In this document: piece after piece, positions 1 through 64,000 of the stretch
Layout: each line of letters begins with the position of its first letter
Numbering within the stretch: position 1 is the stretch's first letter
IMG/VR virus record: IMGVR_UViG_3300023176_004727
Coordinates: 1-64,000 of that record
Reading direction: 5' to 3' (one strand)
Source: a virus
DNA length: 64,000 bases
The notes under the pieces: generated by a model
The model's input: only the letters and a program-made list of their open reading frames with translations
Database searches by the model: none
What the model was told of the DNA's origin: nothing
Made by a program: the position numbers and the translations under genes

Positions 1-38
1 CTTGTGTTATTTGTCCAAATGATGGGGTTTACTTTTAA
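1..38 (+). CDS. 3' end of an upstream gene (partial)
   Basis: The reading frame starting at base 3 gives the C-terminal residues CVICPNDGVYF followed by TAA at 36-38. The stop overlaps the next start as TAATG, the same coupling used by many genes in this window, which is why I treat it as a real gene end. Only eleven residues are visible, so no function can be given; it probably belongs to the same plus-strand sugar-modification operon. Confidence 0.5.
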   Translation, partial: CVICPNDGVYF

Positions 39-565
39 TGATCTACCTTCCGGGAAGGGCGGTTTTTATACATGTACCAAGAGCCGCTGGAAACTCAATA
101 ACTAATGCTATAGCTTCCGCTTGTGCCGGAAATAATTTTGATATTTTCATAGGAACGGGGGCACATTCTATACCGCATTGGTGGCATTTTGCAAGACATA
201 CAAGAGCCTGTGTTTTAAAAAAATACATAACAGAGTGGGATGATATATTTAAGTTTGCTATTTATAGACCAGAAGAAGAAAGACTTAATAGCATTAAAGC
301 ATTAGTAGATAAAGATATTGCTTTAGGCGTTCATGAGTCTCCACTTTGTGCTGATGGATGGAAAAAAGTATTATCATCTGAAGATAAAGAATGGTATTGG
401 GATATTCAAAGAAAACAAGATTTAGCTTGGTTTACTAAAGGTTATGATGGAGAAGATCTTGGTGTTGAGATATTTGACTACTACAAACTAAACGAACAAT
501 GGTGGGAAATTTGTGTAAAATGTGATATTCCACAATGTAGTTTGCCACATCTTAATAAGGCTTAA
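38..565 (+). CDS. sulfotransferase-like protein
   Basis: The 175-residue protein opens with FIHVPRAAGNSIT (about residues 10-22), which matches the 5'-phosphosulfate loop of the Sulfotransfer_2 family (consensus FxHIPKTAGTS). Around residue 72 it has FKFAIYRPEEERLNS, like the family's second PAPS-binding segment (F..vRnPyeRl.S). Such enzymes move sulfate from PAPS onto sugars, here presumably a virion or host glycan. The usual lysine of the first loop (PKTAG) is Arg here and the protein is short, so activity is uncertain. It starts at the TAATG junction with the preceding gene and is followed after 2 bases by a glycosyltransferase-like gene. Confidence 0.55.
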   Translation: MIYLPGRAVFIHVPRAAGNSITNAIASACAGNNFDIFIGTGAHSIPHWWHFARHTRACVLKKYITEWDDIFKFAIYRPEEERLNSIKALVDKDIALGVHESPLCADGWKKVLSSEDKEWYWDIQRKQDLAWFTKGYDGEDLGVEIFDYYKLNEQWWEICVKCDIPQCSLPHLNKA

Positions 566-567
566 TA

Positions 568-1425
568 ATGATAGAAGCGTATGTCCTAAATACCTATGAT
601 GAATTTAAAGATTGGCATAGAACTTCAATTACTAGCCTCAATAGGTATTTTACTAAACATGGAGTAACGCTACGTGTTATTGACAAAAATAATTACTTTG
701 TTAGAAAGATGCTTGATACTAACATTGATCATCATCCGTTCATTAGAAAGCTAACGCGAATTTATAGTTTTTTAGAATCTCAGGCTGATATTGGTATTTT
801 TATTGATTTAGACACTGTAGTACTAAAACTAGAAGAAGACATTAACGGATTAATACCGCAAGACAAAAATTTTATGCACTGGAGATTTGTAGATTTTGGC
901 GATAATCCCGACAGGCCGTGGTTGAAAACAAAAACAGATATCACAAGATTATTTTTTTCCGATAATTATAATAAAGTGCTTAATACTGATACTGGCTTTG
1001 CAATATACACAAGAGAGTTTTGTCAAAATTTAGTTGATTACTTAATAAGTAGAGAATTAGATATTGTGTCAGAAATAGGGTTGCTTCATTGTATGAGCAT
1101 TAACAACCAGTTACGAATTAAGGATGAAAAACAAATAATTAATGATGAACATTTAATATCCTTTTTTCTACAAGAGAATGATAATTATAAAAGCTACACA
1201 ATAGAGCCTCCGTGTAATTTTGCTGGGCAATATCCAAATAACAAAATATGTTCATCAACTTATAATATAGGCGATCCGCTATATCCACAAGAAATAGAAT
1301 TTAAGGATATGATAACTTGGTCTATGCAGAAGCTATGCCTACATGATTGTATATTCCATCATTTATTGGGATGGAGAATGTCTCACAAGTTAGTGCCATT
1401 TTATGTGGAAGCATTTAAAAAATGA
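568..1425 (+). CDS. GT-A type glycosyltransferase-like protein
   Basis: 285 residues. Around residue 76 there is IGIFIDLDTVVLK, a hydrophobic strand ending in a DxD motif, the metal and nucleotide-sugar site of GT-A glycosyltransferases. It follows a segment (FIRKLTRIYSFLESQA) like those of capsule and mannosyl/galactosyl transferases. A second conserved-looking block is DTGFAIYTREFC (about 137-148). Start ATG 568 has AAGG upstream. The stop overlaps the next start (ATGA). It sits between a sulfotransferase-like and a cytidylyltransferase-like gene, so the three probably build or decorate one glycan. The acceptor cannot be told from sequence. Confidence 0.6.
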   Translation: MIEAYVLNTYDEFKDWHRTSITSLNRYFTKHGVTLRVIDKNNYFVRKMLDTNIDHHPFIRKLTRIYSFLESQADIGIFIDLDTVVLKLEEDINGLIPQDKNFMHWRFVDFGDNPDRPWLKTKTDITRLFFSDNYNKVLNTDTGFAIYTREFCQNLVDYLISRELDIVSEIGLLHCMSINNQLRIKDEKQIINDEHLISFFLQENDNYKSYTIEPPCNFAGQYPNNKICSSTYNIGDPLYPQEIEFKDMITWSMQKLCLHDCIFHHLLGWRMSHKLVPFYVEAFKK

Positions 1426-1841
1426 AGCTATACACTGGAGGAACATTTGATCTTTTCCATTACGGGCATATGAAATTTTTAAGAGCCTGTCAAAAGATTT
1501 CCAGTCAAGTTTTTGTTTCTCTAAATACTGACGAGTTCGTATTTTCTTATAAAAATCAAGCCCCAATTTTATCTTATCATGAAAGAAAACAAAGTATTGA
1601 GTGTTTTGACTCAAATATAAAAGTTGTTGAAAATATTGGTGGTCACGATAGCAAACCAGCAATATTAACAGTTCAGCCAGACATTATAGCAATTGGCGAT
1701 GACTGGTGCAAGAAAGACTATTACGAGCAAATGCAGTTTACTCAAGAGTGGTTGGACATTAATAATATACTATTAATTTATATTCCGTATACCAGAGATA
1801 TCTCAACTTCAAGTTTAAAGGCAAGAATATCTATAATTTGA
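1422..1841 (+). CDS. cytidylyltransferase (TagD/glycerol-3-phosphate type)
   Basis: 139 residues, the normal size of stand-alone TagD-like enzymes. The N-terminus has GGTFDLFHYGHMKFL, including the HxGH signature of the nucleotidyltransferase fold, and the C-terminus has DISTSSLKARI, matching the RTxGISTTxLxxRI motif. The family joins CTP to a phosphoalcohol such as glycerol-3-phosphate to give a CDP-activated building block for teichoic-acid-like or capsular polymers. The exact substrate is inference. It overlaps the GT gene by 4 bases (ATGA). Confidence 0.8.
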   Translation: MKLYTGGTFDLFHYGHMKFLRACQKISSQVFVSLNTDEFVFSYKNQAPILSYHERKQSIECFDSNIKVVENIGGHDSKPAILTVQPDIIAIGDDWCKKDYYEQMQFTQEWLDINNILLIYIPYTRDISTSSLKARISII

Positions 1842-1868
1842 CTTTATTTAAAATTCATGGAGTATACT
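1838..1868 (+). promoter_or_regulatory. candidate sigma70-like promoter
   Basis: TTGACT at 1838-1843 and TATACT at 1863-1868 are each one base from the sigma70 consensus. The spacer is 19 bases, longer than the ideal 17. It lies in the 49-base gap between the sugar genes and the first virion-type gene, where a promoter would be expected. Predicted start of transcription is about 1875. Confidence 0.4.
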
Positions 1869-1890
1869 AAGGATAGATTAGGAGATAATA

Positions 1891-2145
1891 ATGTTTTGCG
1901 ATAGTCCTATTTGTGGCAGCACTTTTTCTGATATCGACACATATGTTGTGTCAAACGGGGAAATATTTTACTTTAATATCGACATTCAGGAAGATGAGAG
2001 CTTTTCCATTGAAATTCAGGAAGATGAGAGTTTTTCCATAGACATTCAACAAGATGAAAGTTTCTCCATTGATGTTCAGCAACAGGATGTATTTAATCTG
2101 GATATTCAACAATCTATATCCGAAGATTTTATAATTATTAGATGA
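1891..2145 (+). CDS. small repeat protein of unknown function
   Basis: 84 residues. The middle is made of decapeptide repeats with the pattern (D/E)IQ(E/Q)DESFSI, four recognisable copies plus a degenerate fifth. The alternation of Ile, Gln and Phe suggests short beta strands, as in a solenoid or sheet. Start 1891 has TAGGAGAT upstream. It heads the virion gene series and is followed by a beta-sandwich-like protein 12 bases later. I do not recognise the family; a small virion surface or connector component is a guess from position. Confidence 0.65.
   Translation: MFCDSPICGSTFSDIDTYVVSNGEIFYFNIDIQEDESFSIEIQEDESFSIDIQQDESFSIDVQQQDVFNLDIQQSISEDFIIIR
1981..2100 (+). repeat. 30-bp tandem repeat, about four copies
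   Basis: Four consecutive 30-base units (1981-2010, 2011-2040, 2041-2070, 2071-2100) encode the decapeptide repeats of the surrounding gene. The first three are close copies with mostly silent or conservative changes, the fourth is degenerate. Recent copy-number change by slippage is likely. Confidence 0.85.
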
Positions 2146-2157
2146 CGGGAGAGCTAA

Positions 2158-2463
2158 ATGGCTAGTCAAATACATGTTGGAGATATTGGCACTAAACTCA
2201 TTATGACCGTTAAGGACGATGGGGTAGTTGTAGACATATCTACTGCTAGCGATTTAGATGTATTTATAAAAAAACCAGATGGCATTTCATATGAAAAATC
2301 CGGCCTTTTGTATACTGATGGCACAGACGGTAAAATGTATTATACATCCGTCAGTGGCGATTTCAATGCTGCTGGAAATTATAAACTTCAGGGTAGAGTA
2401 TTTATGCCTAGCGGGACTTATTATACCAGTATAGAAGATTTCAAAGTTTACTGTAACCTTTAA
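2158..2463 (+). CDS. virion protein with BppU/Ig-like N-terminal fold (putative)
   Basis: 101 residues. The opening GDIGTKLIMTVKDDGVVVDI and later DLDVFIKKPDG and NAAGNYKLQGRV follow the pattern of baseplate-upper-protein-like domains (IG..F...I...G..vDlS.A......kpdG...). These are small beta sandwiches found in tail and connector proteins. Start 2158 is preceded by GGGAG. The placement before connector genes supports a structural role; the exact position in the virion is not shown. Confidence 0.55.
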   Translation: MASQIHVGDIGTKLIMTVKDDGVVVDISTASDLDVFIKKPDGISYEKSGLLYTDGTDGKMYYTSVSGDFNAAGNYKLQGRVFMPSGTYYTSIEDFKVYCNL

Positions 2464-2474
2464 GGGGTAAAATT

Positions 2475-3002
2475 ATGTCTTGGCAAGGTGAAATGACTAC
2501 AATAGTTAGATATTTAATAAGTGATGTCGATCCTACAAACTATAGCTATTCTAATGAGCGTTTAGAGACCAGTATTTTAGTCGCTGCACAAATTGTGCTT
2601 GTCGAAGTAGATTTTGAAAACACCTACACGATTGATGTAGAACAATGCTATCTTAGTCCAGATCCTACAGATCCTACAACTGGCTTATCGACTGTAAATA
2701 AGGACGATGCTTTTATTAATTTAGTTTCTCTTAAAACTGCCTGCTTGATTATGGGCAGTGAAATGAAAACACAGGCACTTAATGCTGTTAGAGTCAGCGA
2801 TGGTCCAAGCAGCATTGATTATACCGCAGTAGCAGCAAATATTAAATACCTATACGAATATTCCTGTAAAACATACGAAGAATACAAGTTTAATTACGCC
2901 GCTGGCAATAATGCAGTTGGCAAAGCAATTCTTAGTCCTTACGCTCCCGGCAGTGACGTTGTATATAGATACAATGGTAATTTTAGACAATACATTAGAT
3001 AG
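2475..3002 (+). CDS. putative head-tail connector/adaptor protein
   Basis: 175 residues. The layout resembles head-tail adaptor proteins of marine and freshwater phages: an N-terminal helix with YSNERLETSILVAAQIV, then ENTYTIDVEQCYLSPDPTD, then DAFINLVSLKTACLIM. This likeness is from memory of the pattern, not a search. A good Shine-Dalgarno (AGGGG) precedes ATG 2475. It is followed by four small genes in the usual neck/tail-completion position. Confidence 0.5.
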   Translation: MSWQGEMTTIVRYLISDVDPTNYSYSNERLETSILVAAQIVLVEVDFENTYTIDVEQCYLSPDPTDPTTGLSTVNKDDAFINLVSLKTACLIMGSEMKTQALNAVRVSDGPSSIDYTAVAANIKYLYEYSCKTYEEYKFNYAAGNNAVGKAILSPYAPGSDVVYRYNGNFRQYIR

Positions 3003-3013
3003 AGGTAAAAATC

Positions 3014-3217
3014 ATGGCAGATGTTCTTCAAAAGATTATTGGAGGTAATGATTATAAGAATGGAACGGCTGTTGTATCCGTTAACGTTCTTGGAGTTGTT
3101 ACGAATCATACATTAGATACAGTAAACAATCAGACATCACAAATACCAACTCAAAGCGGCGTTTTAGATTCTAGATTTGAGCATGTTAGATACTACACTG
3201 GAGATGATATTCTATAA
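3014..3217 (+). CDS. small hypothetical virion-region protein
   Basis: 67 residues, start 3014 with AGAGG upstream, stop overlapping the next start as TAATG. The sequence is rich in Val, Thr and Asn with no motif I recognise. Tight coupling on both sides and the connector neighbourhood make it a probable minor structural or completion protein. Confidence 0.55.
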   Translation: MADVLQKIIGGNDYKNGTAVVSVNVLGVVTNHTLDTVNNQTSQIPTQSGVLDSRFEHVRYYTGDDIL

Positions 3218-3696
3218 TGGTTACAATTCCATCTGGCGTGTTTACAAAATATGCGGAATTTGCTGATGCTATGTTAGCATCAAGTGGATTTGGCATGTCC
3301 TGTAAGTTGGTATATACAGAAAAGATAGAAACAATTGTAGATGTCGTTCCGGATATCAAACAGCGTAAGTTAATGAACTTGCAGAATACTTCTCCAGATT
3401 CCGGCTTTAAGAGGGGGTCAACAAGTTTCAAGACTGTAGAAACAACAGAAGATATTACACTCCGCGTTTACTGGGATAAAAAAGACTTCAAGAAGTTTGG
3501 AAATATTGAAGTTCCAGATGGCGGAATAATGACTATCGGAGCTTATGCTGATCTACAAAAAATAAATAGAGCAAAGGCTTTGCTTATAAATACAGATAGA
3601 ACTGGTCATGCAGAATGGCGATTCACAAAGAATGGCGAGCCAGTACTTCATGGATTAGATCAAAAATATTTTATGTGTTTTTGGGGTCGTGCATAA
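3217..3696 (+). CDS. hypothetical virion-region protein (tail completion candidate)
   Basis: 159 residues with no motif I can name. It is beta-rich in the middle (VETTEDITLRVYWDKKDF) and ends in YFMCFWGRA. Its size and place, fourth gene before the tail tube, suit a head-closure or tail-completion protein, but this is position-based inference. Both ends overlap neighbours as TAATG (3215-3219 and 3694-3698). Confidence 0.55.
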   Translation: MVTIPSGVFTKYAEFADAMLASSGFGMSCKLVYTEKIETIVDVVPDIKQRKLMNLQNTSPDSGFKRGSTSFKTVETTEDITLRVYWDKKDFKKFGNIEVPDGGIMTIGAYADLQKINRAKALLINTDRTGHAEWRFTKNGEPVLHGLDQKYFMCFWGRA

Positions 3697-4367
3697 TGGC
3701 TGGATTCCGAACCAAAGCCAACTTAAAAATAGTTAGTGGAGATAATGTATTTCAAGACGCTATAAGAAAAGAACTTATTAAGGCTCTTTTTGGAAAGATT
3801 AATACAATCACTAACAATTTACGTCCAAGCATATCTTCAGTTGTTAGTGTTCAGTTGATGTCTTCTCAAACAGTTACAGAATTACTTGGCGGGCAATTAA
3901 GAGATGACTTTGGTTTAAAGCCAGCAGAAGTAACAAGTGCTATTGGGGGAATTATTGATGCTTTGGCAGAAAACTTTCAAATAAAAGTATTAGCTGGGTC
4001 TAATCAGTATGTAGCAAGATTATCTGCTGAGATTTTACCTGCTGATTTTTCTTTATCATCACTTTCTGCTGGCGGGTCATATCAATCAACTGGAGGAAAT
4101 GTAGATTGGCTCGAATGGTTATTAACTCGTGGCACAGAAATTATTATTGGTGATTATTCGCTATTTGAACATGCTCGTGGCCGCACACGTTCCGGAGGTA
4201 GAACAGTAATGGTTCCATTAAAAAACTTATCTTCCAGCGAGCCTTTTCGCGTCGATCCATCACATGCCGGAACAGAAGCTAGCAACTTTGTAACAAGAGC
4301 GTTAGAACCAGCATTTCCTCAAATTGTTGAAATGGTTGCAAAAGAAATTAAAAAGGTGCTTGAATGA
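3696..4367 (+). CDS. hypothetical virion-region protein
   Basis: I place the start at ATG 3696 because it overlaps the preceding stop as TAATG; the in-frame extension upstream is a shadow of that gene. The 223-residue product has an N-terminal basic helix (FQDAIRKELIKALFGKI), a central serine-rich part and a helical C-terminus (IVEMVAKEIKKVLE). It also contains RGRTRSGGRTVMVPL. I do not recognise the family; a neck or tail-terminator role fits the order of genes. Confidence 0.6.
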   Translation: MAGFRTKANLKIVSGDNVFQDAIRKELIKALFGKINTITNNLRPSISSVVSVQLMSSQTVTELLGGQLRDDFGLKPAEVTSAIGGIIDALAENFQIKVLAGSNQYVARLSAEILPADFSLSSLSAGGSYQSTGGNVDWLEWLLTRGTEIIIGDYSLFEHARGRTRSGGRTVMVPLKNLSSSEPFRVDPSHAGTEASNFVTRALEPAFPQIVEMVAKEIKKVLE

Positions 4368-5317
4368 CATACTTAAAAGGCTTTACTTTATTTGGCGATG
4401 CAACGATTACGGCAGATATTAGAGAGAATTTAATATCATGGCTAGACTATGGCTTAATAGAAAAGTCTGGATATATTAATGTTGAAATACCAACCGTTGG
4501 ATATTACGGTGGATCAGAACATCAACTTAGGGTCGTTGACGATCCTAGATATACATATGGTCAAGTTTGGGAGGGGTTTCGATCAAATTGGGTATGGGAA
4601 AGTGGGCTTGGTGCATTGACCAGTACTGATAGTGCTTACCCCGGAGTTTCTGGAGTTTATGTTGGTGGCGACTTTTATCCAACATCTACTGCGGGAGCAT
4701 ACGCTCATTATATTAATCATCCTTTAGGAAGGGTTATCTTTGATACGGCGATTGATACAGATGCTACTGTAACATGTGAGTATAGTTACAAATATGTTAA
4801 TGTGGCACAAGCGGATGGACTGGAATGGTTTAAGCAAGTGCAGAAAAATTCTGAACGTGCTGACAATTCAAATTTTATCAACAATAGTGGTGAATGGGCG
4901 ATACTAGGCGACAATCGTTTACAATTACCTGCTATTGGTGTGGAATTAGTTAATTCAAGAAAAATGACACCTTATGCACTTGGCGGTGGACAGACAATAT
5001 TCACTGATTTTCTGTTTCATTGCGTTGCGGAAGATGTCTATACGCGAGATCACCTAATTGACATTGTGACTATGCAGAATCAAAAGGTTTTAAAAGCATA
5101 TGATTTGGACCAAATTGCGACAAACAATGCTTTTCCTTTAGATTACAGAGGTGTTCCCGTATCGGGTGCTTTGCAGTATCCAGATCTTTTGTCTACTTAT
5201 GAAGGCAGGCATATAAGATTAATTGAGGCGAGTATTGATTCTGTTTATTCGCTTACGCCAAATGTACATGTTGGTACAGTTAAATTAAAGACTGAACTAA
5301 TAGTTCATGGCGTATAG
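4364..5317 (+). CDS. hypothetical structural protein upstream of tail tube
   Basis: 317 residues, start overlapping the previous stop (ATGA). Rich in aromatic and beta-forming residues, with no nuclease, protease or ATPase motif. Phrases such as HPLGRVIFDTAI followed by TVTCEYSYKYV look like beta-sandwich strands of tail or connector proteins. Its place directly before the tail tube gene suggests a neck or tail-completion component. Confidence 0.55.
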   Translation: MTYLKGFTLFGDATITADIRENLISWLDYGLIEKSGYINVEIPTVGYYGGSEHQLRVVDDPRYTYGQVWEGFRSNWVWESGLGALTSTDSAYPGVSGVYVGGDFYPTSTAGAYAHYINHPLGRVIFDTAIDTDATVTCEYSYKYVNVAQADGLEWFKQVQKNSERADNSNFINNSGEWAILGDNRLQLPAIGVELVNSRKMTPYALGGGQTIFTDFLFHCVAEDVYTRDHLIDIVTMQNQKVLKAYDLDQIATNNAFPLDYRGVPVSGALQYPDLLSTYEGRHIRLIEASIDSVYSLTPNVHVGTVKLKTELIVHGV

Positions 5318-5360
5318 TATCTAGAAAAGTAACATTTTTTCCATAATGGGAGTTTAAATT

Positions 5361-6626
5361 ATGGCATACGTAACAAATACAAACAATAGAGTCTTCTATG
5401 CTACACAAGGTGTAGCATTAGGAGACAGAGCGGCAACAAGCATTGTCGATAGTTGGCAACCCGGAGACGGTGATTTAGATGGTACTGGAAAGGTCATGAT
5501 TATGCATGGCTTGCAGTCCATCGGAGTATCAACCAACTTTAATTTAGAGCAAATCTTTGAACTTGGACAGCTTTCTTTGTATGAAAACTACGAAGAAATT
5601 CCAGAAATCGAAGTTAGCTTTGAGAAGATTCTTGATGGTTATACTTTAGCATATCATGCTGGAACCCCTACTGCGGCAAACGCAACACTAACTGGTCGTG
5701 CAGCACCTCGATCAGATATCAGAATGGTTATTGGCTACGACACATCTGATGAAATTCAAGAGGGCGGAACCAATAGCGGTGTAGCAGAACTTTATTGCTC
5801 TGGTACTTATATCAGTTCTGTATCTTATAGCTTGAGCACAGATGGCAACTTTACTGAATCAACCACTTTTGTTGGTAATGATAAGCAATGGTTGACAGAT
5901 ACTGATTCAGGTGGATTACTGGTAACTGGAACTGGAACTATTGCCTCGGCATTTAGCTCTAGCGTCTTTGGTAATGATGCACCAGTTGGTGAAGCTAATA
6001 GCGTTTTGCGTCGTCAAAATGTTGTTACAGGAAGTACTGGCAAATCATTTGGCAGTGGTTCAGTCAATTTTAGAACAGTTGTGCCAGCCTTTATCGAAGG
6101 AGGTACTCCCGGTGCTACTGGCGTTGAAGGAGGAGCATATACTGGTCTGTATACTAATGTAACTTATATTGATAGTGCTACTGGACCTTATCTACAATCT
6201 GCTAGTGTAAGTGTTGATCTTGGTCGTGAAAACATTTCGCAGCTTGGTAAGAAAGCACCTTACTATCGCTATGTTTCCTTCCCTGTAGATGTGACTTGTG
6301 ATATTGAAGTCATTGCCGTGGGTGGAGATAATATTGATGCTTATGAAGAAGGCTATCCAAGTGCTGGTACAGGCAAAAACATTGGTGTTCCAGTTGGTAA
6401 AAACCTTGCTAATCACTCAATTCAATTTGTTCTTGATGATAGTACAGTTATTCAATTAGGTAATAAGAATAAGCTAACAAGCGTTTCATATGGTGGAGGA
6501 GATGCCGGTGGAGGAAATGCCACGGTAAGCTATAGCTTCACTAATTCTAACGACTTTGTTGTTCTTCATTCTGGAGATCCGGCTCCTATCAACTCCGCTG
6601 ATTATTGGAAAGACTACTTTGGTTAA
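5361..6626 (+). CDS. major tail tube protein (probable)
   Basis: 421 residues, beta-rich and Gly/Thr/Ser-rich. The block MIMHGLQSIGVSTNFNLEQI followed by FELGQLSLYENYEEIPEIEV resembles tail tube proteins, where a beta hairpin and an inter-ring contact loop are followed by a 'vsfek..dG' segment (VSFEKILDGY here). It has its own leader (5318-5360) with GGGAG before ATG 5361, and a strong terminator hairpin directly after the stop, as expected for a very highly expressed gene. The three genes in the chaperone position and the tape measure follow. No sheath gene is nearby, favouring a non-contractile tail. Confidence 0.7.
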   Translation: MAYVTNTNNRVFYATQGVALGDRAATSIVDSWQPGDGDLDGTGKVMIMHGLQSIGVSTNFNLEQIFELGQLSLYENYEEIPEIEVSFEKILDGYTLAYHAGTPTAANATLTGRAAPRSDIRMVIGYDTSDEIQEGGTNSGVAELYCSGTYISSVSYSLSTDGNFTESTTFVGNDKQWLTDTDSGGLLVTGTGTIASAFSSSVFGNDAPVGEANSVLRRQNVVTGSTGKSFGSGSVNFRTVVPAFIEGGTPGATGVEGGAYTGLYTNVTYIDSATGPYLQSASVSVDLGRENISQLGKKAPYYRYVSFPVDVTCDIEVIAVGGDNIDAYEEGYPSAGTGKNIGVPVGKNLANHSIQFVLDDSTVIQLGNKNKLTSVSYGGGDAGGGNATVSYSFTNSNDFVVLHSGDPAPINSADYWKDYFG

Positions 6627-6646
6627 TATAAATTAGTTAAACAGTT

Positions 6647-6675
6647 CCGGAGGGGGAAACCCCTCCGGGATTTTT
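6647..6675 (+). terminator. rho-independent terminator after the tail tube gene
   Basis: A perfect 9-bp stem (CCGGAGGGG at 6647-6655 with CCCCTCCGG at 6660-6668) closes a GAAA tetraloop and is followed by TTTTT at 6671-6675. The next gene starts only 11 bases later with no room for a promoter. It therefore probably acts as a partial terminator that keeps tube expression far above the downstream chaperone and tape-measure genes. Confidence 0.9.
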
Positions 6676-6686
6676 AGGATTTTAGG

Positions 6687-7712: not shown

Positions 7713-7714
7713 TT

Positions 7715-8038: not shown

Positions 8039-8048
8039 GAGGGAAACA

Positions 8049-8924: not shown

Positions 8925-8935
8925 TAGGCAGATAA

Positions 8936-20948: not shown

Positions 20949-20952
20949 TACA

Positions 20953-45464: not shown

Positions 45465-45466
45465 TA

Positions 45467-47919: not shown

Positions 47920-47922
47920 TTA

Positions 47923-49998: not shown

Positions 49999-50009
49999 GT
50001 ATTAGCTTC

Positions 50010-51209: not shown

Positions 51210-51218
51210 AGTTTAACC

Positions 51219-54930: not shown

Positions 54931-54950
54931 ATTCAACGTCCTTCAAAGTG

Positions 54951-54984: not shown

Positions 54985-55002
54985 CATATATGTCAATTGT
55001 AT

Positions 55003-56862: not shown

Positions 56863-57310
56863 ATTTAGTTGCCTCTGCTAAACCTTGAAAGATTTTTGCG
56901 AAATCCTTACGTTGATCTATAGTTTCCAATTTCTTAGGAGTGTCATAATCTACGCTAACAAGATAGTTAGAAACCGCATCTGTAAACGCTGAGTATCTTT
57001 CGCGATCCCATCCATAGGAAGTTTGCACTTTTCCTAGAAGTGGATCAAACTGTGCTGTTTCAGTCATTGTCTGGCAGTTACTGAGATACTCTGCCGCACC
57101 AGCAAACAGTTTATAGATAAGCACTCTATCGTCTCTTGATTCGATTTTATTAAACTCTTCTGTAACTTTTTTCAACTCTTGAGTTTCAGTAACTACAATT
57201 TGTTGAGGTGCTGATTCGGGAGTTAGCTTACCTGAAAGAGCAAAGGATGACATGAAATATAATAGTAATAATCCTAGAAGGACATTTGCAAATGACTGAT
57301 ATTTTCCCAT
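56855..57310 (-). CDS. membrane-anchored protein, lysis-block candidate
   Basis: 151 residues. One N-terminal hydrophobic segment (ANVLLGLLLLYFMSSFALS) with a short positive start, likely an uncleaved anchor or signal peptide. The rest is a soluble helical domain with YKLFAGAAEYLSNCQTM and WDRERYSAFTDAVSNYLVSV. It resembles spanin-like topology only in outline. SD AAGGA before ATG 57310; stop overlaps the peptidase start. Confidence 0.6.
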   Translation of the reverse strand: MGKYQSFANVLLGLLLLYFMSSFALSGKLTPESAPQQIVVTETQELKKVTEEFNKIESRDDRVLIYKLFAGAAEYLSNCQTMTETAQFDPLLGKVQTSYGWDRERYSAFTDAVSNYLVSVDYDTPKKLETIDQRKDFAKIFQGLAEATKYE

Positions 57311-57321
57311 CGTTTTTCCTT

Positions 57322-57657
57322 TTATGGTAAAGTCTTTTTAAATAAAATCGTGTTTAGTTGAATGACTAAATCTAATCCCTCTTTACTTCCATTTTCGACA
57401 CATCTATCTCTTAGATAAGAAAGACATTCAAAATCCTTCTGGTATTTGTCGGAATAGTCTGGCAGTGATGGACTATCACTGCCAAGACTAGACAGAATAC
57501 TCTTAATATTTGGAATCATAATATAAAGTCCTCCAAGACCGCTAATGATTGTTTGAGCATACCATCGTATAGTAAAATCAAATCCATCTACAGTTGATGC
57601 CTGAAAACCATTCCAAGCACAAAATAATAACATTCCTAATCCTATTAGTGATTCCAT
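57322..57657 (-). CDS. small membrane protein (holin-like candidate)
   Basis: 111 residues. Two hydrophobic segments in the first half (MESLIGLGMLLFCAWNGF and YAQTIISGLGGLYIMIPNI) and a soluble helical tail. SD GAGG before ATG 57657. Next to another short membrane protein and the peptidase, so a holin or antiholin is a reasonable guess. Confidence 0.6.
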   Translation of the reverse strand: MESLIGLGMLLFCAWNGFQASTVDGFDFTIRWYAQTIISGLGGLYIMIPNIKSILSSLGSDSPSLPDYSDKYQKDFECLSYLRDRCVENGSKEGLDLVIQLNTILFKKTLP

Positions 57658-57667
57658 ATTTTGTACC

Positions 57668-57874
57668 TCATTTTGTGTTGTCTTTTAACCACTTAATTAC
57701 AGTATCAAGACCTACTACTATGATTGGAACCACAAGTGGACCGGCGGCTCCAAGGTCTACAGTACCAATATTCTGTACAACATAAGTTAGTCCTGCTGCA
57801 ACGCCAACAAGTCCTGCATTCTTACTGAGTGCAACTAGGTCGGCTACGTTTAATGTAAACGCTTTTGAATTCAT
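57668..57874 (-). CDS. small membrane protein, probable holin
   Basis: 68 residues with two hydrophobic stretches (AGLVGVAAGLTYVVQN and GPLVVPIIVVGLDTVI) and a charged C-terminus (KWLKDNTK), the size and layout of many phage holins. AGGAG precedes ATG 57874. It sits between a membrane protein and a beta-rich protein in the same operon. Holins time lysis by opening the inner membrane; identity rests on size and topology. Confidence 0.6.
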   Translation of the reverse strand: MNSKAFTLNVADLVALSKNAGLVGVAAGLTYVVQNIGTVDLGAAGPLVVPIIVVGLDTVIKWLKDNTK

Positions 57875-57884
57875 GTTAAAACTC

Positions 57885-58391
57885 CTAATCTAAACCAATA
57901 ACAATTAATCTGTAAGTAACACCAGATCCCTGATCAGCTAATTGAACATATCTCTGACTGGAGCCTACACTAACTCCAGTGAATGGATCATTGTATGTAA
58001 ATGCCGAGTAGGGTTTTACTAAAAGGTTGCCACTTCCTCCATTGAATAAATTTGTACATGCATTTGTTCCAGTGGCCTGAACTGCAAAGTCGTATCCCTC
58101 TGTGGTAGACTCATTATATACTGTGAAATTTTTTACGCCAGTGAAAACTACGCTGGTTGTTGCATCAAAAGAAGTTTGATTAATTGAGTATAGATCAATT
58201 TGCGTAGACTCTCCAGACGTTAAAACGCCTGTTATAGTTACAGCGTTGGTGACTTGCTTATCACCAGACCCATACGTATAAACAACACTCATGTTTTTAC
58301 TGTCTGATAATGAGACGGTCTGATTACCATTAGTTGACGCAAGAGTATATGAAATTTTGTTTACTGGAGTTGCTGTTATTGATAGACTCAT
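57885..58391 (-). CDS. beta-sandwich protein, virion or surface candidate
   Basis: 168 residues rich in Thr, Ser, Val and Asn with regular alternation (TQIDLYSINQTSFDATTSVV; KNFTVYNESTTEGYDFAVQA). It ends in YVQLADQGSGVTYRLIVIGL, a typical closing strand. Composition suits a decoration, fibre or tip protein, though it lies in the membrane-protein operon. No signal peptide. Confidence 0.5.
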   Translation of the reverse strand: MSLSITATPVNKISYTLASTNGNQTVSLSDSKNMSVVYTYGSGDKQVTNAVTITGVLTSGESTQIDLYSINQTSFDATTSVVFTGVKNFTVYNESTTEGYDFAVQATGTNACTNLFNGGSGNLLVKPYSAFTYNDPFTGVSVGSSQRYVQLADQGSGVTYRLIVIGLD

Positions 58392-58396
58392 AATTT

Positions 58397-58666
58397 TTAC
58401 CTAGTCACTAAAACTTCATTGATTGCTTTTGTTAATTCGGACAATGCCTGATTAGTTTTATCCTGTCTAGCAGATGCGTCTTCTCTCCATTCTGAACGTT
58501 CATCTCGATGGAGTTCATTAATATCATTTATAGTTTTTTGAAACTGTGCATTTCTACGATCTTCTCTTTTGTTACTAGATATGATCACATAAAAGAGTAA
58601 GCTAACCAGCGAAGAAACAGTCAGTCCTACAATTCCTAGATCTGTAGTCCAAGGTAATGCGTTCAT
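58397..58666 (-). CDS. membrane-anchored coiled-coil protein (holin/antiholin candidate)
   Basis: 89 residues from ATG 58666 (GGAG seven bases upstream; a TTG two codons earlier is rejected). One membrane helix (LGIVGLTVSSLVSLLFYVII) then a charged coiled coil (FQKTINDINELHRDERSEWR). This plan is common among phage holin-associated proteins. It starts 12 bases after a strong terminator hairpin. Confidence 0.6.
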   Translation of the reverse strand: MNALPWTTDLGIVGLTVSSLVSLLFYVIISSNKREDRRNAQFQKTINDINELHRDERSEWREDASARQDKTNQALSELTKAINEVLVTR

Positions 58667-58677
58667 ATTCAATCTCC

Positions 58678-58707
58678 AAATACCCCCCTCCCTTACGGGA
58701 GAGGGGT
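58678..58707 (-). terminator. terminator hairpin after the gene at 58732
   Basis: CCCCCCTCCC (58683-58692) pairs with GGGAGAGGGG (58697-58706) around a four-base loop, with one G-T pair; the outer A-T at 58682/58707 extends it to 11 bp. The minus strand continues TATTTGG, a weak U-run. It separates the gene at 58732 from the lysis-type operon and probably allows readthrough. Confidence 0.8.
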
Positions 58708-58731
58708 TTAAAAGAAAGTGTCAAGAATCAA

Positions 58732-59343
58732 TCACTTAGCTGGATAATCTTTCAATACAGCATCAATAGCACCATACATATAAGCAAGTTCACCCGGAAT
58801 ACTTCTATATGTAACAAATTGACCTTGATCAACAGCATTAGAAGCATTGTTAGTTGGCAAGACATAGCTAATATTATTAGTTGCAGGAGCACTGCTCCAA
58901 TTTGTTCTTTGACCAGTAATACCAGTCGCACGCCAGTAACCACTTCTATGAGCAGTTGATGTCTTTGCACCCTTCGACTTATTGCTAACAAGAGTATGAG
59001 GGCGATTTTCTGGAGTGCCATTGACCTGAAGAACTGTGTTTGATTGATTATTAATCTTTGTTGCAACAGTTCTAATCATAAATTGAGACTGGTCATAAGC
59101 AAATGTTCCACCAGTATCTGCTTTTGTTGCACTTGACGCATGAGCGGCACCGGATAGTTCTTTTGGAACTGATCTTCCGGGTTTAATTGTGATTGATGTT
59201 AATGGAAATGTCTGAGTAACAGGACCATTAGTAGTGTCACTAGCAGATGTGATACCAACTACAGTACCTCCATCTCTTTTCTCAGTAGGAGATGAATCGC
59301 TTCCCGTCGTACCATAAATAATTGTATTTGGTAGTAAAGCCAT
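58732..59343 (-). CDS. hypothetical Ser/Thr/Asn-rich protein (virion candidate)
   Basis: 203 residues, MALLPNTIIYGTTGSDSSPT at the start, rich in small polar residues and free of Cys, with no enzymatic motif. A strong hairpin directly behind it and an 82-base leader in front (59344-59425; AAAGG before the ATG, TATAAA and TATAGA as weak -10 candidates) suggest it is expressed strongly and separately. That pattern suits a structural protein such as a decoration or fibre component. Family not recognised. Confidence 0.55.
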   Translation of the reverse strand: MALLPNTIIYGTTGSDSSPTEKRDGGTVVGITSASDTTNGPVTQTFPLTSITIKPGRSVPKELSGAAHASSATKADTGGTFAYDQSQFMIRTVATKINNQSNTVLQVNGTPENRPHTLVSNKSKGAKTSTAHRSGYWRATGITGQRTNWSSAPATNNISYVLPTNNASNAVDQGQFVTYRSIPGELAYMYGAIDAVLKDYPAK

Positions 59344-59425
59344 TGTTATACCTTTCTATAGCTTTATAACCAGCTTCCTAATTATCCTGAAAATAAAAGT
59401 TCCTGATCCTTAGTTGTATACGCCA

Positions 59426-60076
59426 TTACAAACTGTCGTAAGTAATAATGTTACCGTTTTTATTCTTTTTCAATTTCGTTAAAGTTTCGATATATTCTAA
59501 CTCTGATGGAAACTCACTACTCTTGATTGTTTCTATCGTCCCATCATTTCCAATAAATACCGCCCATTTCTCAGAATCTTGTATTGAAAATAACGACTCG
59601 TTAATTTTACTAAATGCTGTGTTGATTAATGAGTCTACAGAGTTATCATCTAGATGTTCTGGTGTTTTCAAATTATTGCATAGTTCTTTTTGAATCTGCA
59701 TTCTAGCCACAGGAAATGTAAATAATTTTTCTATACCTATAAAAAATCTGTATGGAGAAATCAGTGAAAGACATCCAATGCCATCTATTTTTAGATCCAG
59801 CTTTTCAAAGTCTTCATCTGTAATTTTGAAATTAGTATGACCTATCCAGCATTCAAACATATTATATGGTGAAAAAGGGTCATCAATTTCGTAAATACCA
59901 AATGGAGTTCTCACTTTTCTAGAGAGTAAAAAATGCCCTAGATTTAACTCTCTGCCATCTTCCTCTTCTTCATTTTCCATATCAAGATAAGACATTTCAT
60001 CTGATTCATCTTCTTGATTAATTATATCTTCATGATTTGGGGTAAATTTTTCCCAAGCTATTTTTTTCTCTGTCAT
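59426..60076 (-). CDS. hypothetical acidic protein
   Basis: 216 residues. The first 45 are very acidic (DMENEEEEDGREL). The rest has FGIYEIDDPFSPYNMFECWI and FTFPVARMQIQKEL with no recognised motif. Start has GGAG upstream. First of three coupled unknown genes. Confidence 0.55.
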   Translation of the reverse strand: MTEKKIAWEKFTPNHEDIINQEDESDEMSYLDMENEEEEDGRELNLGHFLLSRKVRTPFGIYEIDDPFSPYNMFECWIGHTNFKITDEDFEKLDLKIDGIGCLSLISPYRFFIGIEKLFTFPVARMQIQKELCNNLKTPEHLDDNSVDSLINTAFSKINESLFSIQDSEKWAVFIGNDGTIETIKSSEFPSELEYIETLTKLKKNKNGNIITYDSL

Positions 60077-60087
60077 AATAGGCTCCG

Positions 60088-60369
60088 TCAGCGAAAGGAA
60101 CTTGGCCTCATTAGCGTTCTTGCTTTTTTTATTAATAATTTATCTTCGTTAAATCTTCCAGTAATTTTATAAAAGTTTTCCAGCCATGCAATATCTTCAG
60201 GATCTGCATCTTTTGTTATTAACATGTTGATTATTATATCATAGAATGCAGAATGTGAGGTTGGAGAAAATAATGTTATCATTAATTCTCTGAACGCAGC
60301 GGAGTCATCATATACTAACCCCAAAGTTGGGGAACCGTCTTTGTATTCTAGCTTTACATAATTTGACAT
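60088..60369 (-). CDS. small hypothetical protein
   Basis: 93 residues, GAGGT before ATG 60369. Mixed alpha/beta with DIIINMLITKDADPEDIAWL and a basic end (KKARTLMRP). Located between two other unknown genes on the same strand with gaps of 4 and 11 bases. Not recognised. Confidence 0.55.
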   Translation of the reverse strand: MSNYVKLEYKDGSPTLGLVYDDSAAFRELMITLFSPTSHSAFYDIIINMLITKDADPEDIAWLENFYKITGRFNEDKLLIKKARTLMRPSSFR

Positions 60370-60373
60370 AAAA

Positions 60374-60724
60374 TTACCTCACACTATTTGCGAGTCTATA
60401 CAGTTCAATACTATTTTTATCAAATTTAACAAATTTTCCAGATTTTGCAATTTTGTTATTTGATATTAAATTGTAAGAGATATTCAGATTATCACCGTCG
60501 TTAATTATAGAAGATACAGTTTTTGTAGATAGTATAAAATGCAGGTAATTTTCATAAATAAATTTTGACACAAACATCATGATTTGATTATCTAAATCTC
60601 CATCTTTTACTAGATTAAAATTTGGTATTTCACCGCTGTCATCTAATAAGATGCTAAAACCGTTTTTACTTTCTTCATCTAGACATATGATTCTAGTCAA
60701 AATATTTACAGAAAAGTTATCCAT
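60374..60724 (-). CDS. small hypothetical protein
   Basis: 116 residues. LTRIICLDEESKNGFSILLD then DSGEIPNF at the start resembles the outline of a NUDIX N-terminal half, but no NUDIX box (Gx5Ex7REUxEExGU) is present, so I do not call it one. Overlaps the small membrane protein gene by 8 bases. Confidence 0.5.
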   Translation of the reverse strand: MDNFSVNILTRIICLDEESKNGFSILLDDSGEIPNFNLVKDGDLDNQIMMFVSKFIYENYLHFILSTKTVSSIINDGDNLNISYNLISNNKIAKSGKFVKFDKNSIELYRLANSVR

Positions 60725-60896
60725 TTGATAGCATTTTGCCTATAGTGGCAAGTCCAGCACCGCATAGAACTACAGCTAGTCCAGATTGCCAAGTCTCTAA
60801 TGATGGTATTTCTACTATCTTGGTGAAAAATACTGGACTAAGAAATGCAACCATAACTACTCCAGTAATATGTAATATTTTTGCGAATGCCTTCAT
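60717..60896 (-). CDS. small two-helix membrane protein
   Basis: 59 residues from ATG 60896, which has GGAG six bases upstream. Two hydrophobic segments (KILHITGVVMVAFLSPVFF and GLAVVLCGAGLATIGKML) joined by a short loop. Holin-like size, but it lies beside a glycosyltransferase rather than the peptidase block. Confidence 0.55.
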   Translation of the reverse strand: MKAFAKILHITGVVMVAFLSPVFFTKIVEIPSLETWQSGLAVVLCGAGLATIGKMLSNG

Positions 60897-60897
60897 T

Positions 60898-61992
60898 TTA
60901 AACTCCACTCAATTTTAAAAGGTTATTGTGTATTGTATTTGCAGTTTCCCTCCATGTAAATTTTTGTGCAGATTTAATTCCTGCTATATTTTCTCGTAAA
61001 GATCCATCTTTCCTTTTTTGATGAATATTACGCATATGTTCAACCATTTGGTCTACTTCACTACCGCCTATCTTTCTCCATTGAAATTCACCATGAAACC
61101 ATTTACCATCATTGGCAGGTTCATATCCAGAATCCATATGTATAAGTCGGCAGTTTTCTGTATTACAAAATTCCGTATGTCCAGTAGCATGTGAAATAAT
61201 AACGTGTCTGCCACATGCCAGCAATTCTAAAGCCTCTAAATTCCACCCCTCTGCTCTTGATGGAAATATACCGCAATGTATCTGTGACATGATACTATAC
61301 ACCATGGCCTGAGTTTGCTGACGAGGCACGAATATGATCTTATCACCTAGTTTTGTGTTCTTAAAGCTATTTATCCATGCCTGAGTCTCTTCTGGTTTCA
61401 AGAATGGATTACTTGCCATCATTACAAGAAGAACATCATCATCTTTTTCAAATGCCTTATTGAATACTTCGGGAAGTATATCGTGTCCCTTACGTGCTTC
61501 AAACTTGCCAAAGTTTCCAAATATTGTTTTTCCATTATCTGGCAATGGACAAGGCTTAAAAATATTATCATCATATCCTAAACGAACAACATGAGTATGT
61601 CCAACTTTTTTTGGAACATTGTCATGAATTACGTTCTTAGCCCAATCAGAGCAGACAAACAACTCATCTGGGTTGTTTAGGGAATGCAGTTCTCTATGAT
61701 TAAATTCCTCCAATTCAAATATCGGCATTGCCACTCTAAGACCTTTACCATAAAATGATCTAAGATCAAATTGATGCCATATTTTTAAACATGGAGCGTC
61801 GTAAAAAAAATCCCAACGACCTAATACATCCTGTATATGAGGACGTAATAGATCGTCAGGATTTGGTTGGTGATGATCTAATATTGGAATGTATCTTAAA
61901 TCATAATTAAGATTAAGAAGTTCCTTTAGAATGTATGATGATACGTATCCATAAGAAGTAGTATTAATAGGAGCATTAAGATTCAGTTTCAT
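60898..61992 (-). CDS. GT-B (GT4-like) glycosyltransferase
   Basis: 364 residues. N-terminal loop APINTTSYGYVSSYILKELL; SDWAKNVIHDNV near residue 125; KTIFGNFGKFEARKGHDILP as the C-terminal domain opens; donor motif SRAEGWNLEALELLACGRHV with the two glutamates of GT4 enzymes. It shares SDWAKNV and the E-x7-E element with the GT at 34574. No cysteine insertion. Starts inside the end of the previous gene (17-base overlap). Confidence 0.82.
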   Translation of the reverse strand: MKLNLNAPINTTSYGYVSSYILKELLNLNYDLRYIPILDHHQPNPDDLLRPHIQDVLGRWDFFYDAPCLKIWHQFDLRSFYGKGLRVAMPIFELEEFNHRELHSLNNPDELFVCSDWAKNVIHDNVPKKVGHTHVVRLGYDDNIFKPCPLPDNGKTIFGNFGKFEARKGHDILPEVFNKAFEKDDDVLLVMMASNPFLKPEETQAWINSFKNTKLGDKIIFVPRQQTQAMVYSIMSQIHCGIFPSRAEGWNLEALELLACGRHVIISHATGHTEFCNTENCRLIHMDSGYEPANDGKWFHGEFQWRKIGGSEVDQMVEHMRNIHQKRKDGSLRENIAGIKSAQKFTWRETANTIHNNLLKLSGV

Positions 61993-62167
61993 TCAATTGG
62001 TCTTTTCTGAATGGTGCTAGTTTTGGTTCACTAGCTTTTTTAAGCTGTTCCAACTCTTTTTCAAGTTTTCTTTCTTCTCGCAGGAGTGTTCTCTTTTTGA
62101 GAAGTTTTCGCTTAACTCTTGTCTTACGAGCCTGCTCCTTCTGTACTCTTCTTTTTTCCTTACTCAT
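61976..62167 (-). CDS. small highly basic coiled-coil protein
   Basis: 63 residues. Almost all Lys, Arg, Glu and Leu in the first two thirds (EKRRVQKEQARKTRVKRKLL), predicted to be one long helix, then a short polar tail. GAGGA upstream favours ATG 62167. Could bind nucleic acid or a partner; function unknown. Confidence 0.55.
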   Translation of the reverse strand: MSKEKRRVQKEQARKTRVKRKLLKKRTLLREERKLEKELEQLKKASEPKLAPFRKDQLNETES

Positions 62168-62396
62168 CATCTTCCTCTTGGGTCTTAACGTATATTACTT
62201 CATCTGCTCTTAGAAGTATTACTTCCCGTCCAATATCAGTATCACTAATAACCTCTATACAATTATCACTAAGTTCACCAGAAAAAACATCGTAGATTTG
62301 ATCTACTAGCAATGTTGAAGCGTCTTTTTTAAGGAAGACGGTTATATCCTGATTATTTCTTAGATGTATTGTAATCCTTCGTTTTTCACCTGACAT
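62160..62396 (-). CDS. small hypothetical protein coupled to SSB
   Basis: 78 residues from ATG 62396, overlapping the SSB stop as TGATG. Short alternating strands (RRITIHLRNNQDITVFLKK; EVILLRADEVIYVKT) suggest a small beta barrel, and the end is acidic. Tight coupling suggests it works with the SSB. Confidence 0.55.
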   Translation of the reverse strand: MSGEKRRITIHLRNNQDITVFLKKDASTLLVDQIYDVFSGELSDNCIEVISDTDIGREVILLRADEVIYVKTQEEDDE

Positions 62397-62734
62397 CAAA
62401 AGCTACTTTCTTGAGAAGCCCTCTTTGCTATCTTGAATAAGTTGTTAGCATACACAACGGCCTCTCGACGTTCATTTCCATTCTTATCAGTAAATTCATC
62501 TACTGATAATCGACCAACAACTGCGATCTTGTCGCCCTTCTCTGGGGAGAAGTATTCAAAATCTCTGTATGCAAAGCCAAATAGTTTTACGTCAATAAAC
62601 AACGTATCTTCTTTGTCTCCGCGTTTTGTATTAGCTGCCATTCTGATCTTAGCGTGTTTTCCATTTTCAGATTCATAGATATCTGGATCACGCACTAAGT
62701 TACCTACAAGTTTGATTTCATTGTTTAGTGACAT
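62396..62734 (-). CDS. ssb: single-stranded DNA-binding protein, OB-fold (SSB 2)
   Basis: 112 residues from ATG 62734, five bases after GAGGTG; an upstream in-frame ATG at 62746 has no ribosome site. LNNEIKLVGNLVRDPDIYES, HAKIRMAANTKRG, TLFIDVKLFGFAYRDFEYFS and KGDKIAVVGRLSVDEFTDKN with ERREAVVYANNL are the consecutive strands of a bacterial-type SSB. The family's usual acidic tail (DDDIPF) is absent; it ends RASQESSF. It coats ssDNA during replication. Confidence 0.88.
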   Translation of the reverse strand: MSLNNEIKLVGNLVRDPDIYESENGKHAKIRMAANTKRGDKEDTLFIDVKLFGFAYRDFEYFSPEKGDKIAVVGRLSVDEFTDKNGNERREAVVYANNLFKIAKRASQESSF

Positions 62735-62757
62735 AACACACCTCATTATAGTCTAAG

Positions 62758-62795
62758 TAATAGAAAAGATCCAGTTTTTTACTGTGAGAAACTGG
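62758..62795 (-). terminator. terminator-like hairpin upstream of ssb
   Basis: CCAGTTT (62771-62777) pairs with AAACTGG (62789-62795); the minus strand continues ATCTTTTCTATT, an imperfect U-run. It lies behind the gene at 62812 and 24 bases before a TATAAT (62745-62750, minus) that is too close to the ssb start to be its only promoter. Confidence 0.6.
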
Positions 62796-62811
62796 AAAAA
62801 CTCACCATTCA

Positions 62812-63132
62812 TCAAAAGATTGTTTCTAGCATCTTGCCACGAACAATCTGAGCGTGACCTCGATTAGATCCAGAATACACAGCCATTGCTAGTTGAGGCG
62901 TAATGCCAATAGCTCTAGCTGCACGTTCTGTGCCACGCTTTGTATTCTCAAAATAGCCGCTGCCAAGACTGCCTGCTACGGCAGTAACTGGATTAAAGGT
63001 CTTGCCTTTGTGTTGGCCTCGTCTAGCAACTCCGACAATTTTGTTTTCAACATATTCCCAAGAATACGCAGATGAAACACGAGTCAGAGTTTCTAAGAAT
63101 ACTGTCTGGGTCATAACTGTCTTGCTTGCCAT
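62812..63132 (-). CDS. hypothetical basic protein, first gene after the divergent promoter
   Basis: 106 residues from ATG 63132 with AAGGAG upstream. Basic and Gly-rich middle (VARRGQHKGKTFNPVTAVAG), then RGTERAARAIGITPQLAMAV. It is the first minus-strand gene from the TATAAT at 63175, so it is probably made early. No family recognised; a host-takeover or DNA-binding role would be a guess. Confidence 0.6.
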   Translation of the reverse strand: MASKTVMTQTVFLETLTRVSSAYSWEYVENKIVGVARRGQHKGKTFNPVTAVAGSLGSGYFENTKRGTERAARAIGITPQLAMAVYSGSNRGHAQIVRGKMLETIF

Positions 63133-63174
63133 AGTAAGTCTCCTTGAAAAAAATCCTAACAAACAGTTTACAGT

Positions 63175-63180
63175 ATTATA
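63175..63180 (-). promoter_or_regulatory. -10 element, minus-strand promoter
   Basis: A perfect TATAAT on the minus strand, 43 bases before the start at 63132. The expected -35 position does not resemble TTGACA, so activation or a phage-specific factor may be needed. It is the only good promoter-like box in front of the minus-strand genes at this end. Confidence 0.5.
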
Positions 63181-63216
63181 CCGAGTTCCGACCGAAAGCT
63201 CACCGATTTTTCTTGA

Positions 63217-63237
63217 TTTTCCCTGAAGTTCAGAAAA
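63217..63237. promoter_or_regulatory. candidate operator dyad between divergent promoters
   Basis: TTTTCCCTGAAGTTCAGAAAA reads as an inverted repeat (TTTTC..TGAA and TTCA.GAAAA) with a two-base insertion in the left arm. It lies midway between the two opposite TATAAT boxes (63175-63180 and 63265-63270), a classical place for a repressor or switch site. No regulator gene is identified. Confidence 0.35.
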
Positions 63238-63264
63238 GTATCGTCTTTTTCAATGTTGCTTGGC

Positions 63265-63270
63265 TATAAT
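63265..63270 (+). promoter_or_regulatory. -10 element, plus-strand promoter
   Basis: A perfect TATAAT on the plus strand with no clear TTGACA at the right distance upstream. There is no protein-coding frame with a ribosome site in the next 280 bases, so it may drive the structured RNA described at 63277-63480. Confidence 0.45.
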
Positions 63271-63276
63271 CTACTG

Positions 63277-63480
63277 GCTGGTTGTTGATTTCCAGCTTAC
63301 AGTCCTGTTGACAAACAAAAATCATCAGCTTGTGAGGCGTAGGCGAAATAATATCAGCTAAAGAACCTCCAACTGCACAGATATCCAATGGTTGCGAGCA
63401 GTCGCGTAATGATCTGTGTAACCCCCACAAGTTTATTTTTCAGAAGAAATTTTTATTTCTTTCTGAGCTTTATTATTTTT
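63277..63480 (+). ncRNA. candidate structured non-coding RNA
   Basis: This 204-base stretch has no supported gene. It folds into a series of hairpins: GCTGG/CCAGC (about 63279-63296); a ten-pair stem with two single bulges (63326-63337 with 63366-63375); directly next to it a perfect 7-bp stem CACAGAT/ATCTGTG (63376-63382 with 63412-63418) that encloses GCGA-GCAG-TCGC (63394-63405); and CAGAAGAAA/TTTCTTTCTG (63441-63465, one bulge) followed by a T-rich run to 63480. A perfect TATAAT lies at 63265-63270. Promoter, stacked hairpins and a terminator-like end suggest a small RNA; strand and function are inferred. Confidence 0.4.
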
Positions 63481-63563
63481 ACATATTTAGTTTTAAGTTT
63501 CAATTGTAGAGTTTACTACTTTACATGCTTATAGATAAGAAGTTCAGGTAAAAAGGAAAAAGT

Positions 63564-63917
63564 ATGAAGATTTCACAAAGAGCATACGAAGTAGAAAAGC
63601 GTTGGGGTAAAGAAGTTTGGTTTGCCAACAACGAAGAAAAGGATTACTGTGGTAAAGTTCTCTATATTAATCCCGGAGAAAAATTAAGTCTTCACTTTCA
63701 TGTTATCAAGGAAGAACATCTCTTTCTTTTACATGGAGATTGTAGTGTGACTTACCTAACACAAAAAGGTAATGAAGTAAGATTTGACATGAACGAAGGA
63801 GAAGCGTTACACATTAAGCCCGGATTTGTTCATAGATTTTCAACTGTTAATGGGTGTACATTGCTTGAAGCTAGTACTTTCCATCGGGATAGTGATAGCT
63901 ACAGGGTGCAACGGTGA
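63564..63917 (+). CDS. cupin-domain protein (mannose-6-phosphate isomerase type II-like)
   Basis: 117 residues. The double-stranded beta-helix motifs are clear: VEKRWGKEVWFANNEEKDYC, PGEKLSLHFHVIKEEHLFLL (the metal-binding HxH...E), and GEALHIKPGFVHRFSTVNG (second motif with His). This is the cupin of PMI/mannose-1-phosphate guanylyltransferase C-terminal domains, made here as a stand-alone protein. It may isomerise a sugar phosphate for glycan synthesis. AAGGA precedes ATG 63564, and the stop overlaps a glycosyltransferase start. Confidence 0.78.
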   Translation: MKISQRAYEVEKRWGKEVWFANNEEKDYCGKVLYINPGEKLSLHFHVIKEEHLFLLHGDCSVTYLTQKGNEVRFDMNEGEALHIKPGFVHRFSTVNGCTLLEASTFHRDSDSYRVQR

Positions 63918-64000
63918 AAGTCTTATTAATATCAGATTTTGGAGTCCATCACACATCCGGTGGGGCACAAAGAAGTAATCAGATAATTATTGACAAAGGT
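63914..64000 (+). CDS. glycosyltransferase, N-terminal fragment (cut by window end)
   Basis: A GTG at 63914 overlaps the cupin stop (GTGA). The 29 visible residues begin KVLLISDFGVHHTSGGAQRS, the strand and glycine-rich loop that open GT4-type GT-B glycosyltransferases (SGGAxR). Coupling to a sugar-phosphate cupin supports a glycan role. The rest lies outside the window. Confidence 0.6.
   Translation, partial: MKVLLISDFGVHHTSGGAQRSNQIIIDKG

Follow-up and report, generated by a model that had tools for sequence, protein, structure and literature searches.

Complete absence of the word CCWGG from an uncultured phage group and its probable cause, restriction by host Type II endonucleases

The stretch of DNA analyzed here (the window) consists of bases 1-64,000 of the 86,139-base virus record IMGVR_UViG_3300023176_004727 (G000). 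It encodes a split DnaE-like DNA polymerase, the two parts of which (37022-41124, minus strand) align to neighboring segments of a single PHROG profile, as well as an exonuclease, a PD-(D/E)XK nuclease, and two glycosyltransferase-like proteins (Table 1). Genes for an epimerase, an aminotransferase, and a GHMP kinase are located downstream of the window in the same record. A second record with a length of 118,642 bases (G009) encodes a polymerase and a ribonucleotide reductase that are identical to those of the window.

Table 1. Genes and sequence features of the window with the basis of each entry
Feature	Position	Strand	Basis or remark
Complete absence of CCAGG/CCTGG	1..64000	.	Word counts
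Absence of GCGC, ATCGAT, AGGCCT, GGATCC, CTGCAG, CAGCTG, CTTAAG, ACTAGT, GCATGC, GTGCAC	1..64000	.	Word counts
53 CCSGG sites	50..63823	.	Excess over codon shuffles shown for the whole record
Glycosyltransferase-like gene (PHROG 2170)	34574-36214	-	Profile match
Split DnaE-like DNA polymerase, C-terminal part	37022..38581	-	Profile match
RNase_T/DnaQ-like exonuclease	38619..39314	-	Gene between both polymerase parts
Split DnaE-like DNA polymerase, N-terminal part	39286..41124	-	Source of family search and tree
PD-(D/E)XK nuclease (PF12705, Cas4-like matches)	41157..42173	-	Family in 11/11 CCWGG-lacking and 7/9 CCWGG-bearing records
Glycosyltransferase-like gene (PHROG 2170)	60898-61992	-	Profile match

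Neither CCAGG nor CCTGG occurs in the window, for which a maximal-order Markov model predicts 30.4 and 28.7 sites, respectively, or about 59 in sum. This absence, which the initial annotation had pointed out, extends over the whole 86,139-base record (0 found, 84 expected) and over G009 (0 found, 112 expected). If a word with over 15 expected sites is called avoided once its count falls below 0.1 of expectation, CCWGG is avoided in the window as well as in G009; the expectations used here derive from maximal-order Markov models and codon shuffles and not from the compositional bias formula of PMC6286503. The absence also withstood the shuffling of synonymous codons within genes, a control that the initial annotation had named and for which the ORF calls were made in this analysis. 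In 200 shuffles, the genes of the 86 kb record contained 73.5 CCWGG sites on average and never fewer than 60, compared with none in the actual genes. The genes of G009 are equally devoid of the word, with 93.3 sites on average and a minimum of 68 in 200 shuffles.

The related word CCSGG is common. The initial annotation had estimated about 48 such sites in the window, and the six places given as examples lie within 8 bases of actual sites at 50, 10373, 15565, 28169, 49697, and 63672. Genes of the 86 kb record contain 68 CCSGG sites versus 31.8 in codon shuffles, and G009 contains 86 versus 44.5 expected, which is the largest rise among the words that are one step away from CCWGG. Since CCSGG is raised, a general avoidance of CCNGG is ruled out, and the avoidance is confined to CCWGG.

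CCWGG is apparently avoided through silent codon choices. In the 69 called genes of the window, all 49 prolines that precede a glycine are encoded by CCG (20) or CCC (29) and none by CCA or CCT, whereas 558 of the 671 remaining prolines use CCA or CCT, which agrees with the codon pattern described initially. In G009, prolines before glycine are likewise encoded by CCC (46) or CCG (25) in 71 of 71 cases and never by CCA or CCT, which account for 1026 of 1288 prolines elsewhere. Accordingly, 71 of the 86 CCSGG sites of this record are in-frame Pro-Gly codon pairs of the type CCC/CCG-GGN. Furthermore, none of its 350 TGG codons is preceded by a codon ending with CC, compared with 3.5% elsewhere. 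In orthologous comparisons of G009 with five relatives, 83 places carry CCWGG in the relative, with some positions recurring, and G009 retains none of them. Multiple changes were found at 42 of these places; the encoded residues are the same at 39 and different at 44, as expected for such diverged proteins. For GGWCC, the same comparisons offered 72 places, 32 of which retain the word. Between CCWGG-bearing relatives, CCWGG was retained in 10 of 44 comparisons.

The initial annotation had treated CCWGG as a single odd word, which does not hold. GCGC is also absent from the window (0 versus 74 expected), AAGCTT occurs once (21 expected), and a large number of six-base palindromes that contain G/C are missing or almost missing. 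When G009 was scanned with strands merged for words with at least 8 expected sites, those at or below one-quarter of expectation comprised one tetramer (GCGC, 0/152), one pentamer (CCWGG), and 17 hexamers, 15 of which are palindromic. At or below one-tenth of expectation were 13 of 46 palindromic but only 2 of 1975 other hexamers. Depletion in this record is specific for palindromic, Type II-like words, with CCSGG not being avoided. Palindromic hexamers also prevail among the eliminated ones in G006 (10/49 versus 4/1986 for other hexamers), G022 (12/52 versus 6/1980), G031 (16/47 versus 5/1953), and G036 (32/58 testable ones versus 2/1994). An avoidance of hairpins or of palindromic structure as such was rejected because palindromic hexamers built from A and T alone occur about as often as expected in G009 (698/732), while those with four G/C are reduced to 45/253 and those with six G/C to 0/32.

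Some records show further peculiarities. In 160,000 of the 172,878 bases of G036 (loci L188-L195), GATC is absent with 472 sites expected, and GGCC is absent from 60,000 bases of G042 (L242-L244, L106, L107, L247, L248) with 170 expected. Bipartite words of the Type I-like kind were also scanned; the 43 depleted rows lack an adequate control and are not taken as support for any claim. In G006 (L017-L023), the non-palindromic words CTGAAG (1/42), GAGCAC (0/21), and GAGACC (0/17) are eliminated. We take CTGAAG to be a Type IIG site. For Type IIG sites, no avoidance was found according to the consulted parts of PMC6286503.

The distribution of the missing word was followed with the N-terminal polymerase part. 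A search of viral contigs with this sequence yielded 11 loci and, together with an alignment, 79 loci (from the best 80 of 91 matches), 73 of which are informative with at least 8 CCWGG sites expected. CCWGG is eliminated in 47 of these loci (0 found, 807 expected), four of them being near-identical relatives of the window itself, and is kept in 26 (393 versus 492 expected), three of which are borderline (L039, L041, and L043, 2/18 each). On a tree of 60 distinct polymerases, loss and retention of CCWGG require at least 6 changes, a rough minimum as long branches join in this tree (L097 with L102), while 300 shuffles of the labels required at least 14. The trait is inherited, yet it has repeatedly been lost or gained. 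Other lineages are purged of GATC, GGWCC, TCGA, or GGCC, besides or instead of CCWGG, and the changes on the tree amount to 3 for GCGC, 5 for GGWCC, 3 for GATC, 2 for TCGA, and 1 for GGCC. The larger part of the group, represented by 32 distinct polymerases with identities down to 51%, is CCWGG-free in all stretches read. Longer stretches gave the same picture: 11 records from separate contigs contain no CCWGG with 883 expected (a sum of rounded figures), and nine others contain 714 of 839 expected, with several of these records being read in part.

One record, G014 (L222-L226), contains 8 CCWGG sites in its first 50 kb (about 40 expected) and 37 in the next 50 kb (about 52 expected), and this difference between the halves has a binomial p of 4e-4. 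This half-purged record is possibly a mosaic or in the course of being purged. In L016 (2582-3227) and L024 (7894-8539), tRNA genes lie clustered next to a tmRNA-like call, the tag of which is short; this call may be a false positive.

That dsDNA phages eliminate Type II sites is established (Rusinov et al. 2018, PMC6286503); according to that study, the elimination is total or nearly total in roughly one-tenth of viral genomes. Very probably, CCWGG has been purged from the phages described here because Type II restriction endonucleases of their hosts selected against it, with a host endonuclease being the inferred agent. CCWGG-bearing DNA would be cut on entry into such a host, and CCWGG-free variants would survive. 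As the word can be removed synonymously, for example by changing Pro-Gly pairs from CCW-GGN to CCS-GGN, such a purge could reach zero. Other enzymes would likewise have selected against GCGC and many six-base palindromes, and lineages with other hosts would purge other words. Different palindromic words have vanished entirely from related phages that have many genes in common, by routes that can leave the protein intact, and this is what selection by Type II restriction predicts. Three points speak against this reading. The searches yielded neither a host nor a cognate enzyme, the elimination persists down to 51% polymerase identity and is more constant than expected of mobile restriction systems, and the many missing palindromes call for one host with many enzymes or for a wide range of strains.

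It is rather unlikely that CCWGG is a lineage-fixed taboo of the whole uncultured phage family. If it were, a CCWGG nuclease would be a core and not a mobile element of the host lineage, or it would be carried by the phages and tolerated since their genomes are CCWGG-free.

A phage-encoded endonuclease that cuts CCWGG in the DNA of the host or of competitors, with the phage protecting itself by lacking the word and not by methylation, is very improbable as the cause. It would agree with the long spans over which the elimination is inherited (6 changes on the tree, at least 14 in shuffles) and with the methylase searches. No match to the C5-cytosine methylase family PF00145 was found in G000, G009, or any other CCWGG-lacking record among the 39 records searched, some of which are perhaps incomplete. 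The two records with such matches, G011 and G042, are both CCWGG-bearing. The N4/N6 methylase family PF01555 was matched in G042 only (1 of 27 records, neither G000 nor G009), where two such matches stand beside a single cytosine-C5 match. A phage methylase of these two families that makes CCWGG irrelevant is not favored, as neither family was matched in G000 or G009. Against a phage-encoded nuclease stands the gene content, as no protein family is present in all 11 CCWGG-lacking and absent from all 9 CCWGG-bearing records, several of which are fragments or part-fetched; a conserved nuclease with altered specificity would evade this presence/absence test. The family that comes nearest to tracking the loss is a UvsX-like recombinase (11/11 lacking versus 4/9 bearing), which is no sequence-specific nuclease. 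The PD-(D/E)XK protein of the window is not favored as a CCWGG nuclease; its family also occurs in CCWGG-bearing records (Table 1). EcoRII-C (PF09019) was matched in none of 39 records and likewise in none of the 14 control genomes. In addition, a phage nuclease leaves the many other missing palindromes unexplained.

Selection could also be exerted by a Dcm-like methylase of the host in combination with a methyl-dependent (Type IV) nuclease. This would leave the same word-level footprint, and nothing in the present data separates Type IV from Type II. We nevertheless regard it as very unlikely, because it must be invoked anew for GCGC, GATC, GGWCC, GGCC, and the hexamers, and because elimination occurs mainly at orthodox Type II sites according to the consulted parts of PMC6286503.

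The initial annotation had offered restriction and the decay of a methylated cytosine word side by side. In the latter case, the inner C of CCWGG would be methylated in the host and the word lost by C-to-T deamination. Some data conform to this: 6 of the 41 single-step losses in the orthologous comparisons are inner C-to-T changes, and the deamination product CCAAG/CTTGG is raised in G009 (221 versus 178.6). However, CCAAG/CTTGG is also raised in the CCWGG-bearing G006 (223 versus 191.4), and the other product, CCTAG/CTAGG, is below expectation in G009 (62 versus 79.2). The middle W has been replaced by S in 27 of the 41 losses, with the other 8 being of different kinds, and the largest rise is that of CCSGG. 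Other one-step neighbors are raised as well, namely ACTGG/CCAGT (258 versus 190.1) and CCAGC/GCTGG (238 versus 179.0). Moreover, with new sites continually arising, decay does not bring the count to exactly zero. Decay is therefore an extremely unlikely cause, whereas the restriction part of the initial proposal is borne out by the preferential elimination of Type II-like palindromes and by the differences in the eliminated word between lineages.

An artifact of library preparation or assembly, conceivable as all sequences are metagenomic contigs, is refuted for practical purposes because two contigs of sample number 3300023116 differ (CCWGG 0/15 expected in L003 and 8/11 in L052) and because it can produce neither the CCSGG excess nor the switch of proline codons.

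Compared with known systems, selection by host Type II endonucleases would place this group beside the phages described in PMC6286503, in which, according to the consulted parts, palindromic Type II words are found at less than one-tenth of expectation. The present case differs in that not one CCWGG site is left in 47 loci of uncultured phages, in that the eliminated word switches on the tree, and in that no cognate enzyme was matched. Escherichia phage T7 is similarly depleted of CCWGG (2/56), GATC (6/141), and palindromic hexamers with four G/C (0.22 of expectation), but it retains two CCWGG sites, has an unrelated genome, and carries the annotated anti-restriction protein Ocr. Microcystis phage MaeS (MT362618), which is the best-covering terminase match of a G009 relative (25.1% over 85%) and shares 7 protein clusters with the compared records, contains CCWGG 1/51 (0/33 in its first 50 kb) and GGWCC 2/18. 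Unlike the phages described here, MaeS also lacks CTSAG (3/91), keeps other words, and is annotated as encoding a DNA-cytosine methyltransferase as well as an antirestriction protein. As benchmarks, the first 50 kb of three further phages were counted: Staphylococcus phage K has GATC 0/112 and GGWCC 0/16, cyanophage S-RIM50 has CCGG 0/35 and GATC 14/173, and Ma-LMM01 has no eliminated 4- or 5-base palindrome.

In the search for a host, a scan of named genomes with the polymerase gave matches of at most 31% identity among the best 80 listed, which were taken for cellular DnaE. A near-identity search of annotated phages with the first 25 kb of the window found nothing, searches of annotated phages with the polymerase and the ribonucleotide reductase gave only matches below 60%, and no paper on this phage group was found in the open-access literature. 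A psbA-type gene was found in none of 35 records, with the control being positive in Synechococcus elongatus.

While the evasion of restriction sites is a known strategy, the complete and phylogenetically persistent elimination of CCWGG across an uncultured group is unusual. From the words that a phage lineage lacks, one can read which restriction enzymes it has encountered. Words that are lost in one lineage and kept in a close relative (CCWGG, GCGC, GATC, GGWCC, TCGA, and GGCC) provide a testable fingerprint for finding hosts, and with the polymerase tree it can be measured how fast natural restriction pressure acts and how long it persists. The half-purged G014 may reveal such a purge under way.
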